Translations under genes and position numbers: made by a program
Notes under the pieces: generated by a model
Told to the model about the DNA's origin: nothing
What the model saw: the letters and a program-made list of their open reading frames with translations, nothing else
The model's database searches: none
In this document: positions 16,929 to 21,838 of the stretch, piece after piece
Position numbering within the stretch: position 1 is the first letter of the stretch
How the letters are laid out: each line of letters opens with the position of its first letter
Source: Pseudoduganella lutea
GTDB taxonomy: Bacteria; Pseudomonadota; Gammaproteobacteria; Burkholderiales; Burkholderiaceae_D
Reading direction: 5' to 3'
NCBI RefSeq assembly: GCF_004209755.1
Contig: NZ_CP035913.1
Coordinates: 7,254,001 to 7,318,000, forward strand
Length of the DNA stretch: 64,000 nucleotides

Positions 16929-17277
16929 GAGGTCGATCGAGGGGTAAAGGCTCGCATGATGACTGGCCGATAACATTTCGTCAAGGCACTCCGCCAGGTG
17001 CACATGCGTCCTGTCCAGGACGTGCGAATTACAACAAGTTTTATTACATCGAATGTAACTTTCGTTGAAACTTAAAAACATTTATTTACTATTGGTACTA
17101 CGCAGATCAAAATGCTATACAATCAGCAACATGTATGTCTGAGCTGCATCAAAACGGCCGCTCGTACTTTTCTTCCCGGCAGAGGCTGTACCCAACACCT
17201 GTACTGCGCCCCGGGGCAACCCCCGTCCGTCTACGCATCCATGAAATGCGCAGGACTGGCATTGGAGCACACACTGC
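16929..17277. promoter_or_regulatory. 349-nt AT-rich divergent intergenic region
   Basis: This lies between the HTH gene and the SdrD-repeat gene. It is clearly AT-richer than the surroundings at about 17025-17130. A plausible plus-strand promoter is TTGAAA (17067-17072), 16 nt, TACTAT (17089-17094), giving a long leader before ATG 17278. No convincing small gene was seen. Confidence 0.35.
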
Positions 17278-20200
17278 ATGAGCGACATTTCACTTACCAG
17301 CACCATCCACGTCGACGAGGACACCTCGGCGACCGTTTCCCTGCGTGACATCCTTGCGGATGCCGGCTATACCACCACGGCAGGCTTGAAAGTCGAGATG
17401 TACGAGACCGAACTGCCGAACGGCGAATGGGCGGAAGGCGATACCCCTTTGCTTGGCATGGTCGACAGCGAACATCTTTACATCCGCCCGGGTGCTTGGG
17501 AAAAGGACTATAACGGTGAATTCTTCACCTATCAGTTCTTGCTGGAGGACAAGGCAAATGGCACTTACCTGACGCTGGAAGTACGCGTCGTCATCGACCC
17601 CGTCAACGACGCGCCCACTGGTGCCGACCGAGACTTCGACCTGGCGAACCACGATCCCGTGGTGCTGGGCAAGTCCGACTTCGGTTTCGAGGATGCCGTC
17701 GAGGGCGACGCATTCAAGTCCATCATCATCAAGTCGCTGCCGGCCGACGGCAAAATCCTGCTGGACGGTGAAGCCGTCGCGAAGGGCGATGAGATCTCTG
17801 CCGCCGATATCGCGGCCGGCAAGCTGACGTTCGTGCCGAGCGACACCTCCGGCGGCATCGTCGAACTGGGCTTCCGCGTGCGAGACGACGGCGGCACGGT
17901 GGGCACCGGCGCGCAGGACACAAGCATCAACACGAACTACCTGTCGTTCAAGGTGCCCGTCCCGGAAGTGACCCCGCCGGGCGGCGGCGCGCCCACGCTG
18001 GCCAAGATCGGCGACACGGTATGGGAAGACGATAACGGCGATGGCCTCCAGGATGCGGGCGAAGATGGCATCGCCAACGTGACCGTGGCCCTGCGCGATG
18101 CCGACGGCAACGTCGTGCTCACCACGAAAACCGATGCGGACGGCCAGTACAGCTTCGAGATCGGTACCGGCACCTACACCGTCGCGCTGACCGCGCCGAA
18201 CGGCTACGTCGCCACCGAAAAGAACGCCGGGTCCAACGGCGCCATCGACAGCGACATCGATGCGGGCGGCAAGACCGACGCGATCACGGTCACCAAGGGC
18301 GACGTCTACGACAGCGCCGACGCCGGCCTGTATCGCTACGCCAGCGTTTCCAGCACCGTGTGGAACGACACGGATGGCGACGGCAAGCTTGACGTGAACG
18401 AAGGCGGCATCGCCAACGTCACGGTCTCCCTGCTCGACGCGAACGGCAAGGTGGTCGCCCAGGCTTCCACCGATGCCGACGGCCATTACAAATTCGGCGA
18501 CCTGAAACCGGGCACCTACAGCCTGAAATTCGACGCCGCCACGCTGCCTGAAGGCGTGACGTTCGCCTCCGGCAACGGCAGCACCGCGCAGGTGACGCTC
18601 TCCTCCGGCGAGAACGCCGTGTTCGAGGCGCCGGCCAACTCGCAGCCGGGCACGATCGCCAGCACCGTGTGGGAAGACGCCAACGGCAACGGCGTGCAGG
18701 ACAGCGGCGAAACCGGCATCGCCGGCGCCACCGTATCGCTGCGCGATGCAAACGGCAATACCGTTGCCACCACCACCACGAACGCCCAGGGCGACTACAC
18801 GTTCACCACGGCGGTCGGCAATTACTCGGTGCAGGTGGCCAAGCCCGCCGGCTACACGTTCACGAGCCAGAACACGGGCAGCAACGACGCGGTCGACAGC
18901 GATGTCGACGCGGGCGGCGCATCCGCCACGTTCGCCGTGAAGGCCAACGCCACGGTCGATCCGGCCGACGCCGGCCTGTATCGTGCCGCCTCGCTCGGCA
19001 ACAAGGTCTGGTTCGACTGCGATGCCGATGGTATCCAGGACGCCGGCGAAAGCGGCATCCAGGGCGCCAAGGTCACGCTGCTCGACGCGAACGGCAAGTC
19101 GATCGCTTCGACCACGACGAACGCGAACGGCGAATACGCCTTCGCCGGCCTGAAGCCGGGCACCTACAGCGTGAAGTTCGACACGGCGCAACTGACCTCC
19201 GGCTACACGATCACGAAGCAGGATGCCGGCGGCAACGACGCGCTCGATTCCGACATCGACGCCAATGGCCTGTCGCAGAAAGTGACGCTGGTGTCGGGCG
19301 AGAACAACACCTCCATCGACGCCGGCGTGGTGCAGACCGCGACGATCGGCGACCGCGTGTGGCTCGACAGCGATGCCGACGGCATGCAAGACAGCGGCGA
19401 AGGCGGCGTGGCGGGCGTGGTCATGACGCTGACGAACGCAAACGGCGACGTGGTAACCACCACGAAGACCGATGCGAACGGCTACTACAAGTTCAACGTG
19501 GCGGCCGGTACTTACAGCGTGAGCATGAAGACGCCGGACGGCTACGGCGTGACGAAGCAGTACGCCACCAACGGCTCGTACGACAGCAATGCCGACGCCA
19601 AGGGCAACCTGGGCACCGTCACGGTCAAGGCGGGCGAAGCGCAGAAGTCGCTCGACGCCGGCCTGACGCAGACGAGCATCCGCAGCACCGTGTGGGAAGA
19701 CAGCGATTTCGACGGCGTGCAGGACGCGAACGAATGCGGCATCGGCGGCGTGACCGTCAAGCTGTATGACGCGAACCATGTGCTGAAGGGCACCACCGTG
19801 ACCAAGGCCGATGGCAGCTACGCGTTCGACAAGCTGGCCGCCGGTTCCTACAGCGTGGAAGTGACGCGCCCGACCGGCTACCACACGACGAAGGCGAACG
19901 TGGGTGCGGACAGCACCGACTCCGATTTCATCAACCTGGCCGGTTCATCGACGGTTGCGGGCAGCGGCGTATTCACGCTGGCCGCCGGCGAGCAGAAGAC
20001 CGACGTCGACGCGGGCCTGTACCGCAAGGCCAGCATCGGCGACAAGGTGTGGCGCGACGCGAACCACAACGGCGTGCAGGACAAGGGCGAGGAAGGCATC
20101 GGCAAGATCAAGGTCATGCTGTATGACGCCACCAGCAACAAGGTGCTGGCGACGACGACGACCGACAGCAGCGGCGGCTACCTGTTCAGCAACCTCGATC

Positions 20201-20997
20201 CGGGCAGCTACTACCTGAAGTTCGACAAGACCAACGTGAAGTTCACCGATGCCAAGGGCCTCACGTATGCGATGAACGACTGGAAATGGGGCGTGCAGAA
20301 CACCGGCAAGAACGACCTCGTCGACAGCGACGTCAAGGGCGACGGCGTGAGCAAGGTGAATCTGACGCAGACCGACGCCACGTTCCTCTCCTCCGGCGAG
20401 AACGACATGAGCTGGGATGCGGCGATCACGCCGATCGCCATCGACCTGAACGGCGACGGCATCCACACGATCGCGCGCGCCGACTTCGGCGGCAGCTTCG
20501 ACCTGCTCGGCACCGGCAACGCGATCAAGTCGGGCTGGCTGTCGTCGAGCGACGCCTTCCTGGCGATCGACGCGAACGGCAACGGCAGCATCGACGATAT
20601 CGGCGAACTGTTCGGCGGCGCGAGCAAGGGCAGCGGCTTTGCCAAGCTGGCGTCGTTCGACAGCAATGGCGACGGCTTCGTGACGGCCGACGACGCGCAG
20701 TTCGGCGCCCTGACCTTGTGGCAGGACGCCAACAGCAACGGCATCACCGATGCGGGCGAGCTGATCTCGCTGGCCCAGGCGGGTGTGACGTCGCTGGCGG
20801 TGTCCTTCGAAGAGCTGCCGTTCCTGGATGCCAACGGCAACCTGCACCTGGAACGCAGCAGCGCCACCGTCAACGGCCAGGAAGTGTCGATGACGGACGT
20901 GTACTTCAACGTCGACGCGGCCGACGTGGCCGCAGCCGGCATCGACGGCCTGAACATGGCCGAGCTGATCGGCCAGGCCGCCACGATCATCCACTAA
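17278..20997 (+). CDS. Giant SdrD-B-repeat surface protein, type I secretion style
   Basis: A 1239-residue protein with no N-terminal signal peptide. Order: an N-terminal segment (1-110), a cadherin-like domain (about 111-225, after VVIDPVNDAPTG), and seven SdrD-B/Cna-B-type repeats starting near residues 242, 354, 457, 570, 688, 799 and 919, each opening with VWxDxxxDGxQDxxExGI and spaced about 100-120 residues. A C-terminal calcium-binding block (about 1055-1239) has AIDLNGDGIHT, AIDANGNGSIDDIGELFGG and DSNGDGFVTADD, as at the C-termini of RTX-like proteins exported by type I secretion. It is probably a calcium-stiffened adhesin or matrix protein. No exporter genes are nearby. A PEP-CTERM gene follows after 51 nt. 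Confidence 0.88.
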   Translation: MSDISLTSTIHVDEDTSATVSLRDILADAGYTTTAGLKVEMYETELPNGEWAEGDTPLLGMVDSEHLYIRPGAWEKDYNGEFFTYQFLLEDKANGTYLTLEVRVVIDPVNDAPTGADRDFDLANHDPVVLGKSDFGFEDAVEGDAFKSIIIKSLPADGKILLDGEAVAKGDEISAADIAAGKLTFVPSDTSGGIVELGFRVRDDGGTVGTGAQDTSINTNYLSFKVPVPEVTPPGGGAPTLAKIGDTVWEDDNGDGLQDAGEDGIANVTVALRDADGNVVLTTKTDADGQYSFEIGTGTYTVALTAPNGYVATEKNAGSNGAIDSDIDAGGKTDAITVTKGDVYDSADAGLYRYASVSSTVWNDTDGDGKLDVNEGGIANVTVSLLDANGKVVAQASTDADGHYKFGDLKPGTYSLKFDAATLPEGVTFASGNGSTAQVTLSSGENAVFEAPANSQPGTIASTVWEDANGNGVQDSGETGIAGATVSLRDANGNTVATTTTNAQGDYTFTTAVGNYSVQVAKPAGYTFTSQNTGSNDAVDSDVDAGGASATFAVKANATVDPADAGLYRAASLGNKVWFDCDADGIQDAGESGIQGAKVTLLDANGKSIASTTTNANGEYAFAGLKPGTYSVKFDTAQLTSGYTITKQDAGGNDALDSDIDANGLSQKVTLVSGENNTSIDAGVVQTATIGDRVWLDSDADGMQDSGEGGVAGVVMTLTNANGDVVTTTKTDANGYYKFNVAAGTYSVSMKTPDGYGVTKQYATNGSYDSNADAKGNLGTVTVKAGEAQKSLDAGLTQTSIRSTVWEDSDFDGVQDANECGIGGVTVKLYDANHVLKGTTVTKADGSYAFDKLAAGSYSVEVTRPTGYHTTKANVGADSTDSDFINLAGSSTVAGSGVFTLAAGEQKTDVDAGLYRKASIGDKVWRDANHNGVQDKGEEGIGKIKVMLYDATSNKVLATTTTDSSGGYLFSNLDPGSYYLKFDKTNVKFTDAKGLTYAMNDWKWGVQNTGKNDLVDSDVKGDGVSKVNLTQTDATFLSSGENDMSWDAAITPIAIDLNGDGIHTIARADFGGSFDLLGTGNAIKSGWLSSSDAFLAIDANGNGSIDDIGELFGGASKGSGFAKLASFDSNGDGFVTADDAQFGALTLWQDANSNGITDAGELISLAQAGVTSLAVSFEELPFLDANGNLHLERSSATVNGQEVSMTDVYFNVDAADVAAAGIDGLNMAELIGQAATIIH

Positions 20998-21005
20998 TCA
21001 CCACC

Positions 21006-21024
21006 GTGCCGGCCGCGCCGGCAC
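21006..21024 (+). promoter_or_regulatory. Intercistronic hairpin GTGCCGGC/GCCGGCAC
   Basis: A perfect 8-bp stem with a CGC loop in the 51-nt gap between the SdrD-repeat and PEP-CTERM genes. Without a T-run it is better read as an attenuator or mRNA-processing/stability hairpin than a full terminator. Confidence 0.45.
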
Positions 21025-21048
21025 CATTAACAATAACTAAGGAATGAC

Positions 21049-21792
21049 ATGACCACCATTTTCGCCAAGCTGTCCGCCGTCGCCATCGGCGTTGCCCTGT
21101 TCGCTCCTGCGCAGGCCACTACCTCGACCAGCGTCTACATCGCTTCGCACAACGGCCAGCAAACGTTAGCGGCCAAGAATTTCAATGCGCTGGATAACCG
21201 GGGCTTCAACCTGCAGACGTGGGACGTTTCCACCAGCGCCGGCAAGACGTTCCTGGCCCTGTGCGTCGAGCCAGGCGCCAACATGGGCATGGAAAACCAG
21301 AGCTACGCTGCTGACTCCACGTTCAAATTCGCCGACCTTACTCCTGGTGTTGAGCGCCAAACGTCGATCGCGCGCCTGTATGGCCTGTACTACGACAAGA
21401 TCACGGGGGCCGACGAGGCCTCGAAAGACCTCAGCCTGAGCTTCCAGCTTGCGCTGTGGGAACTCTACAACGACGACGCGACGTTCGAGACGGCTGCGAC
21501 GGGCAAGCTTGCCGTCAATAATACGATCACTGGCGGTCGCGGCAACGGCGCGGGCGGCTATGCGGGCGCGGCCCCTATCGTCACCGACGCCTACAAGATG
21601 CTTGCCGAAGCGAAGGACAAGAGCCTGGCCTACACACAACAGTACACGTTCACGCGATACACGTCGGGGACGTCCCAGGACTTTGTGATCGCCCAAGCCG
21701 TCTCGGCCGTGCCGGAACCATCGACCTACGCGATGCTGGGCCTGGGCCTGGCCGTCGTTGGCTTCGCCGCGCGCCGCCGCGCCAAGCGTTGA
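21049..21792 (+). CDS. PEP-CTERM protein with thioester-domain-like Cys/Gln signature
   Basis: A 247-residue exported protein. The signal peptide (1-23) ends APAQA. The C-terminus is a complete PEP-CTERM sorting signal: VPEPSTYAMLG, a hydrophobic helix, then RRRAKR, which directs processing by an exosortase and display in or through the envelope. The body has C72 in LALCVEPG and Q133 in SFQLALWELYND. This pairing resembles the Cys...Gln signature of Gram-positive internal-thioester (TED/TQXA) adhesin domains, though the Cys-Gln spacing is shorter; the link is inference. AAGGAATGAC precedes the ATG. It lies 51 nt downstream of the giant SdrD-repeat protein and is followed by a strong terminator. 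Confidence 0.85.
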   Translation: MTTIFAKLSAVAIGVALFAPAQATTSTSVYIASHNGQQTLAAKNFNALDNRGFNLQTWDVSTSAGKTFLALCVEPGANMGMENQSYAADSTFKFADLTPGVERQTSIARLYGLYYDKITGADEASKDLSLSFQLALWELYNDDATFETAATGKLAVNNTITGGRGNGAGGYAGAAPIVTDAYKMLAEAKDKSLAYTQQYTFTRYTSGTSQDFVIAQAVSAVPEPSTYAMLGLGLAVVGFAARRRAKR

Positions 21793-21810: not shown

Positions 21811-21838
21811 AAAACGGGCGCCGCGGCGCCCGTTTTTT
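21811..21838. terminator. Bidirectional rho-independent terminator
   Basis: AAAACGGGCGCC / GGCGCCCGTTTTTT forms a perfect stem with T-runs on both strands, placed between the convergent PEP-CTERM and GST genes. Confidence 0.9.

Follow-up and report, generated by a model that had tools for sequence, protein, structure and literature searches.

A putative split thioester-domain adhesin in Pseudoduganella lutea composed of an SdrD-B stalk and a PEP-CTERM protein

Two neighbouring genes of Pseudoduganella lutea, located in a stretch of 64,000 nucleotides of contig NZ_CP035913.1 (positions 7,254,001 to 7,318,000, hereafter the window), probably encode the two parts of a split thioester-domain adhesin: a 1239-residue protein with SdrD-B repeats, the stalk, and a 247-residue PEP-CTERM protein with a thioester domain (TED). 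Both open reading frames (ORFs) lie on the same strand with a gap of 51 nucleotides between them (Table 1). An earlier note, made from the sequence alone, had already described the stalk with its length, its seven repeats, the missing signal peptide (judged by eye) and the gap, all of which is confirmed. Its central idea of a Gram-negative, exosortase-sorted TED protein paired with an SdrD-B stalk also stands, in view of a predicted fold that is that of solved TEDs and of a pairing seen in all 62 stalk loci surveyed. The bond partner that it named for the cysteine had to be replaced.

The PEP-CTERM protein has the predicted fold of a thioester domain

The 247-residue protein combines a leader, recognized by eye, with a cysteine in FLALCVEP (Cys72), a glutamine in FQLALWELY (Gln133) and a PEP-CTERM tail, just as the earlier note had it. 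In the first 32 aligned homologues only Cys72, Leu110, Phe132, Gln133, Ala135, Trp137 and Gln210 are invariant outside the tail. Structure searches gave a one-sided result, the predicted fold being that of the solved TEDs, and we consider it almost certain that the protein belongs to this fold; because the outcome was so one-sided, a chance match of motifs was rejected as an explanation. The structural alignments end at model residue 218 with CpTIE residue 275, at 217 with SfbI residue 268 and at 218 with PnTIE residue 255. Provided that the last strand is ungapped, Gln210 thus falls on Gln267 of CpTIE, Gln261 of SfbI and Gln247 of PnTIE, the published bond residues.

The sequence motifs of TEDs are found as well. 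The [YFL]C motif appears as LC in the window protein, and among 127 sequences the residue preceding the cysteine is F in 83, L in 23, Y in 19 and W in 2. The TQxxW-type helix motif is represented by FQLALW, with F in place of T. Cys72 and Gln210 are 138 residues apart; this spacing ranges from 107 to 155 in 125 sequences, some homologues being shorter than the solved TEDs.

As expected for an exosortase substrate, leader, PEP motif, helix and basic tail are all present, and the genome encodes two exosortases and gives 91 matches to PEP-CTERM at E<=0.01. Only about 10 residues separate the last strand of the TED from the PEP motif, so that the domain alone has no reach. Kinship with the floc protein PepA (NF033554), which shares the leader and the PEP-CTERM tail, was rejected because its match depends on the tail: the window protein scores 33.9 bits where the cut-off is 80, and no NCBIfam match is left once the tail is removed. 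The UniRef name of one relative (P0054), assigned automatically, begins with 'Cys-Gln thioest'. A literature search gave no paper with both 'thioester domain' and 'PEP-CTERM', and related searches gave none described as such in the titles and starts of abstracts listed; the available part of PMC2907700 has 'thioester' and 'PEP-CTERM' together, with thioesterase meant.

Homologues point to Cys72 and Gln210 as the probable bond pair

Conservation was assessed in 181 non-redundant homologues with a mean pairwise identity of 28% (2000 sampled pairs). Left out were 14 of the 45 matches of the first search, namely P0003, which is a piece of the window protein, and 13 that covered 10-32% of the query and were judged to be tail matches, further 29 of the 85 new matches that had no TED region (P0104-P0132), and identical or contained sequences; one alignment of long entries (A3) excluded P0032, P0033 and P0089. 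Cys72 is kept in 180 of the 181, Gln210 in 179, Gln133 in 177 and Trp137 in all of them. The sole homologue without the cysteine, L052, has serine at this position, alanine at position 210 and an intact Gln133, and the fragment P0089 stops short of Gln210. Exactly one cysteine is found within aligned positions 26-218 in 177 of the 181 sequences, and a disulfide inside the TED is therefore unlikely.

Gln210 was absent from the residues listed in the earlier note and emerged from the homologue alignment. The note had instead paired Cys72 with Gln133, taking a glutamine of the QxAIW type as the bond partner, and had regarded free variation of either residue as an argument against its proposal. 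Cys72 shows no such variation, whereas Gln133 is replaced, by alanine in three cases and glycine in one (P0097 and the TEDs of L179, L182 and L183), in proteins that all retain Cys72 and Gln210, and is kept in the protein that has lost the cysteine. According to the available parts of PMC6194298 and PMC4450167, the helix-motif glutamine of solved TEDs is not the bond glutamine, both this residue and the tryptophan of TQxxW are dispensable for the bond, and in four solved TEDs the bond glutamine follows the cysteine by 129-195 residues within a C-terminal motif. The high conservation of Gln133 notwithstanding, we therefore rejected the Cys72-Gln133 pair, whose probability we regard as negligible. 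Instead, it is very probably Cys72 and Gln210 that form the internal thioester, and with this pair the concern of the note that a distance of 61 residues might be too short vanishes.

The stalk protein and its association with the TED protein

The stalk begins with MSDISLTST and by eye has neither a hydrophobic leader nor a sorting tail. Seven repeats, each starting with VWxDxxxxG, can be made out by eye, and Pfam reports eight SdrD_B stretches. Calcium binding by the C-terminal part, as claimed in the earlier note, is plausible, the EF-hand matches within the last 218 residues all being sub-threshold (best E 3.5e-4, 20.5 bits versus a cut-off of 25). A survey of lysines that covered both constant end parts of the stalk yielded only Lys984 and Lys1117 as invariant in 62 of 62 stalks, both in the C-terminal part; that they might serve as acceptors for the TED is speculation. 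No consistent isopeptide lysine was seen by eye in the SdrD-B repeats. Among relatives (L152-L164, L174-L202) the stalk frame is between about 1130 and about 3020 codons long, with both ends still recognizable.

The N-terminal module of the stalk occurs in 42 of the 74 genomes of the window's genus. A search with the TED protein, with 38 candidates scored per genome, gave matches in all 74 genomes that were mostly due to the tail, and long TED matches (E<=2e-20) at 45 places in 43 genomes. In each of the 42 genomes with a stalk the TED gene lies next to it on the same strand; one genome (G012) has a TED, in a diverged copy, but no stalk. Fisher's test on these counts (42/0/1/31) yields 5e-20, the related genomes not being independent. 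Of 392 genomes of the family, 68 match the stalk module, 33 of them in the window's genus and 35 outside. Of the latter, the 20 with E<=1e-50 were followed, the 15 weaker ones being left out, and in all 20 loci the TED adjoins the stalk. Taken together, 62 stalk loci from four genus labels (g1, g232, g236, g240) have the TED beside the stalk on the same strand without exception, with stop-to-stop distances of 690-809 nucleotides. The conservation of the pair, suggested in the earlier note as a check, is thereby borne out, and it is highly likely, on genomic grounds, that stalk and TED are functional partners.

Other arrangements of TED genes were encountered in the same searches. A second TED subfamily with the motif TYC[VL]DLYQ, which retains the cysteine and the C-terminal glutamine, has no stalk neighbour (L172 in G071, L173 in G012), and a metagenome-assembled genome of the Burkholderiales contains a tandem pair of TED-like PEP-CTERM genes (L075:5761-7635).

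Secretion genes and variant architectures

As to export of the stalk, a type I ABC gene was found on the same strand within the fetched stretch in all 20 loci outside the window's genus. The four that were scanned pass the LssB-type model TIGR03375 with 726-747 bits (cut-off 693). L225 continues behind the ABC gene with a gene for HlyD, at 345 bits in TIGR01843 (cut-off 209), and with one for an outer membrane efflux protein, at 125 bits in Pfam OEP. For the type I secretion of the stalk put forward in the earlier note, the lack of a leader by eye and the gene linkage in other genera speak in favour, and the missing linkage in the 42 loci of the window's genus speaks against.

Three further genomes have other layouts. 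G1208, from another family (L268:1-9000), encodes a giant protein with cadherin-like repeats, then a TED PEP-CTERM protein, a type I ABC protein (756 bits) and HlyD. The end of the giant protein matches the C-terminal module of the stalk with E 1.3e-13 in a comparison without filters, the filtered one listing no match, and the locus would be the same cassette with another stalk. In G488 (L167:2269-8295) a protein of 2008 residues has a TED (50.3 bits) near its N-terminus, seven DUF11 stretches and a short hydrophobic tail, in what appears to be a Gram-negative TIE-like layout; its last 77 residues matched no NCBIfam family. In G196 (L168:7424-10207), from another class of Pseudomonadota, a single chain consists of five SdrD_B stretches, Big_9 and a C-terminal TED, which scores 22.5 bits against a cut-off of 22; the 5' end of this frame is cut by the contig end.

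Organization of the gene pair

The features of the locus are collected in Table 1. Promoter-like sites on both strands between 16900 and 22000 number 4, versus a mean of 1.2 in shuffled sequences, which is weak evidence. The hairpin behind the TED gene was found by folding, with none of 200 shuffles folding as well, and is absent from the listing of a terminator pattern scan of the region. A promoter-like site before the stalk gene and a strong hairpin with T run after the TED gene are what a single transcript of both would presumably show.

Table 1. Features of the stalk and TED genes, in positions of the window
Feature	Position	Strand	Evidence
Giant SdrD-B stalk protein, 1239 residues	17278..20997	+	ORF; Pfam SdrD_B E 1.6e-197; by eye without signal peptide
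Stalk N-terminal module, residues 1-231, cadherin/Ig-like	17278..17970	+	Cadherin_4 E 0.0011, below cut-off; marker of the co-occurrence survey
Seven SdrD-B repeats, residues about 242-1047	18001..20418	+	Pfam and by eye
Stalk constant C-terminal module, residues 1048-1239, EF-hand-like loops	20419..20994	+	Conserved over 42 and 62 stalks; weak EF-hand matches
Stalk Lys984, candidate acceptor (speculative)	20227..20229	+	Kept in 62/62
Stalk Lys1117, candidate acceptor (speculative)	20626..20628	+	Kept in 62/62
PEP-CTERM TED protein, 247 residues	21049..21792	+	ORF, Pfam, predicted-fold matches
Signal peptide of TED protein, residues 1-23	21049..21117	+	By eye; predicted local distance difference test <50 at 1-18
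TED fold, residues about 25-219	21121..21705	+	Structural match range 25-219
Cys72, presumed thioester cysteine	21262..21264	+	180/181 homologues
Gln133, FQLALW helix motif; on the present reading not the bond Gln	21445..21447	+	177/181 homologues
Gln210 in SQDFV, presumed thioester glutamine	21676..21678	+	179/181 homologues; end register with published bond Gln
PEP-CTERM sorting signal, residues 220-244	21706..21780	+	PF07589 E 1.4e-8; two exosortase genes in genome
Promoter-like site upstream of stalk gene	17065..17092	+	Sole + strand site listed between 16900 and 22000; weak evidence
Intrinsic terminator-like hairpin and T run just 3' of TED gene	21811..21836	+	-19.6 kcal/mol, z -4.9

Discussion

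The closest known kinds of protein are the class I TEDs and the TIE adhesins. What is new is that two genes are used, that the TED has an exosortase tail and a presumed type I partner, and that the host is Gram-negative; the founding survey, in its available part, places TEDs exclusively in Gram-positive bacteria (PMC4450167). With the class I TEDs (SfbI, Cpa, CpTIE, PnTIE; PF08341) the window protein shares the predicted fold, the [YFL]C cysteine at a strand end, the QxxxW helix motif and a C-terminal glutamine in Q-x-hydrophobic-hydrophobic, with a Cys-Gln spacing within the 129-153 residues of three solved structures. Unlike them it is a separate small protein with no stalk in its chain and PEP-CTERM in place of LPXTG, and it is too distant in sequence for a PF08341 match. 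TIE proteins such as BaTIE, SaTIE and p34 of pLS20 likewise combine a TED with a multi-domain Ig-like stalk, but in one wall-anchored chain, where here two ORFs and presumably two export routes are used; SdrD-B repeats and TED fused in one chain were seen once, in G196. Type I-secreted giant adhesins of the LapA/RTX kind resemble the stalk in size and repetitiveness, the lack of a signal peptide, the EF-hand-like C-terminal part and the transporter genes nearby in other genera, but an exosortase-type TED gene between stalk and transporter genes sets the present clusters apart.

In the mechanism that we propose, the 247-residue protein would be a class I-like TED with its internal Cys72-Gln210 thioester, exported by Sec and then presumably sorted by exosortase, for which motif and enzymes are present. 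The SdrD-B protein would serve it as a stalk and leave the cell by a type I system, as the gene clusters of other genera suggest. The stalk would give reach, and the thioester would react with a lysine or another nucleophile to form a covalent link, either with the stalk or with a target in the matrix or on a surface, so that both proteins together would do the job of one Gram-positive TIE protein.

Several observations weigh against this proposal. PF08341 does not match the window protein at E<=10. In sequence searches of the PDB the first alignment had no match, and the wider one ranked SaTIE-TED (E 0.081) below unrelated chains (0.036); a comparison with the pLS20 TED by hhalign reached 23% probability over 22 columns. 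Among relatives PF08341 exceeds its cut-off in 4 of 41 genomes and 3 of 10 proteins. Across the phylum such matches are rare, with 2 of 398 genomes over the cut-off, and in 369 genomes of the class the model matched once, below threshold. The co-occurrence counts lack phylogenetic independence, and outside the Oxalobacteraceae TED PEP-CTERM genes commonly stand without an SdrD-type stalk: among 28 TED loci from order and class searches, inspected with 1.5 kb flanks, the stalk module was found only in L247, the G1208 locus, and nine further or longer-flank TED loci (L069, L070, L074, L075, L098, L163, L169, L269, L270), searched for the SdrD-type stalk only, gave no match. None of the 42 loci of the window's genus, only 18 of which span over 12 kb, has a type I ABC gene next to the pair, and the window genome has no TIGR03375 match over the cut-off (best 542.8 bits). 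Finally, the loss of the cysteine is a single case, and the bond itself is one that we infer.

The last two points bear on the possibility of a TED fold without a thioester, in which Cys72 and Gln210 would be kept for structure or for other chemistry. That L052 persists with neither residue fits this explanation, but the lone cysteine of an exported domain, the fact that both residues are nearly invariant and were lost together, and a mass deficit of about 17 Da in each of twelve purified Gram-positive TEDs (PMC4450167, in part) render it improbable. As to the target of the bond, the TED may be an outward sticky head for host surfaces, other cells or the exopolysaccharide matrix, with the stalk as its non-covalent carrier or a co-expressed matrix protein; to this we give a real chance, if one short of even. 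SfbI-TED binds fibrinogen covalently (PMC6194298), the TED adhesin of pLS20 helps mating (PMC8092201) and flocs of other bacteria form with the help of PEP-CTERM proteins (PMC9850573), all according to the parts available, the TED of G488 has the usual place near the tip, and TEDs without an SdrD-type stalk exist. Taken by itself, however, an outward head leaves the constant presence of a TED beside the stalk unexplained.

This presence is what a covalent self-assembly would account for, where the exosortase-sorted TED bonds to a lysine of the secreted stalk and welds it to the envelope or to itself in place of a built-in anchor. No stalk lacks its TED in the 62 loci, the stalk by eye has no signal peptide or sorting tail while the TED has no reach, the two C-terminal lysines are invariant, and the only TED without cysteine (L052/L163) has no stalk neighbour, while L164, a second copy in that genome, has both cysteine and stalk. 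The conserved lysines may nevertheless be structural, the distant stalk of G1208 by eye has no counterpart of Lys1117, and TEDs that lack such a stalk require another target. A covalent bond to the stalk instead of an outside target is less likely than not, and its specific form, two export routes joined outside the cell by a spontaneous isopeptide bond from the Cys72-Gln210 thioester to a stalk lysine, we rate as rather unlikely.

If the proposed thioester forms, covalent adhesion would extend to diderm bacteria, and its split form there would be new. A concrete chemistry could then be assigned to a group of PEP-CTERM proteins, and the two proteins would constitute a natural two-part protein-coupling pair.
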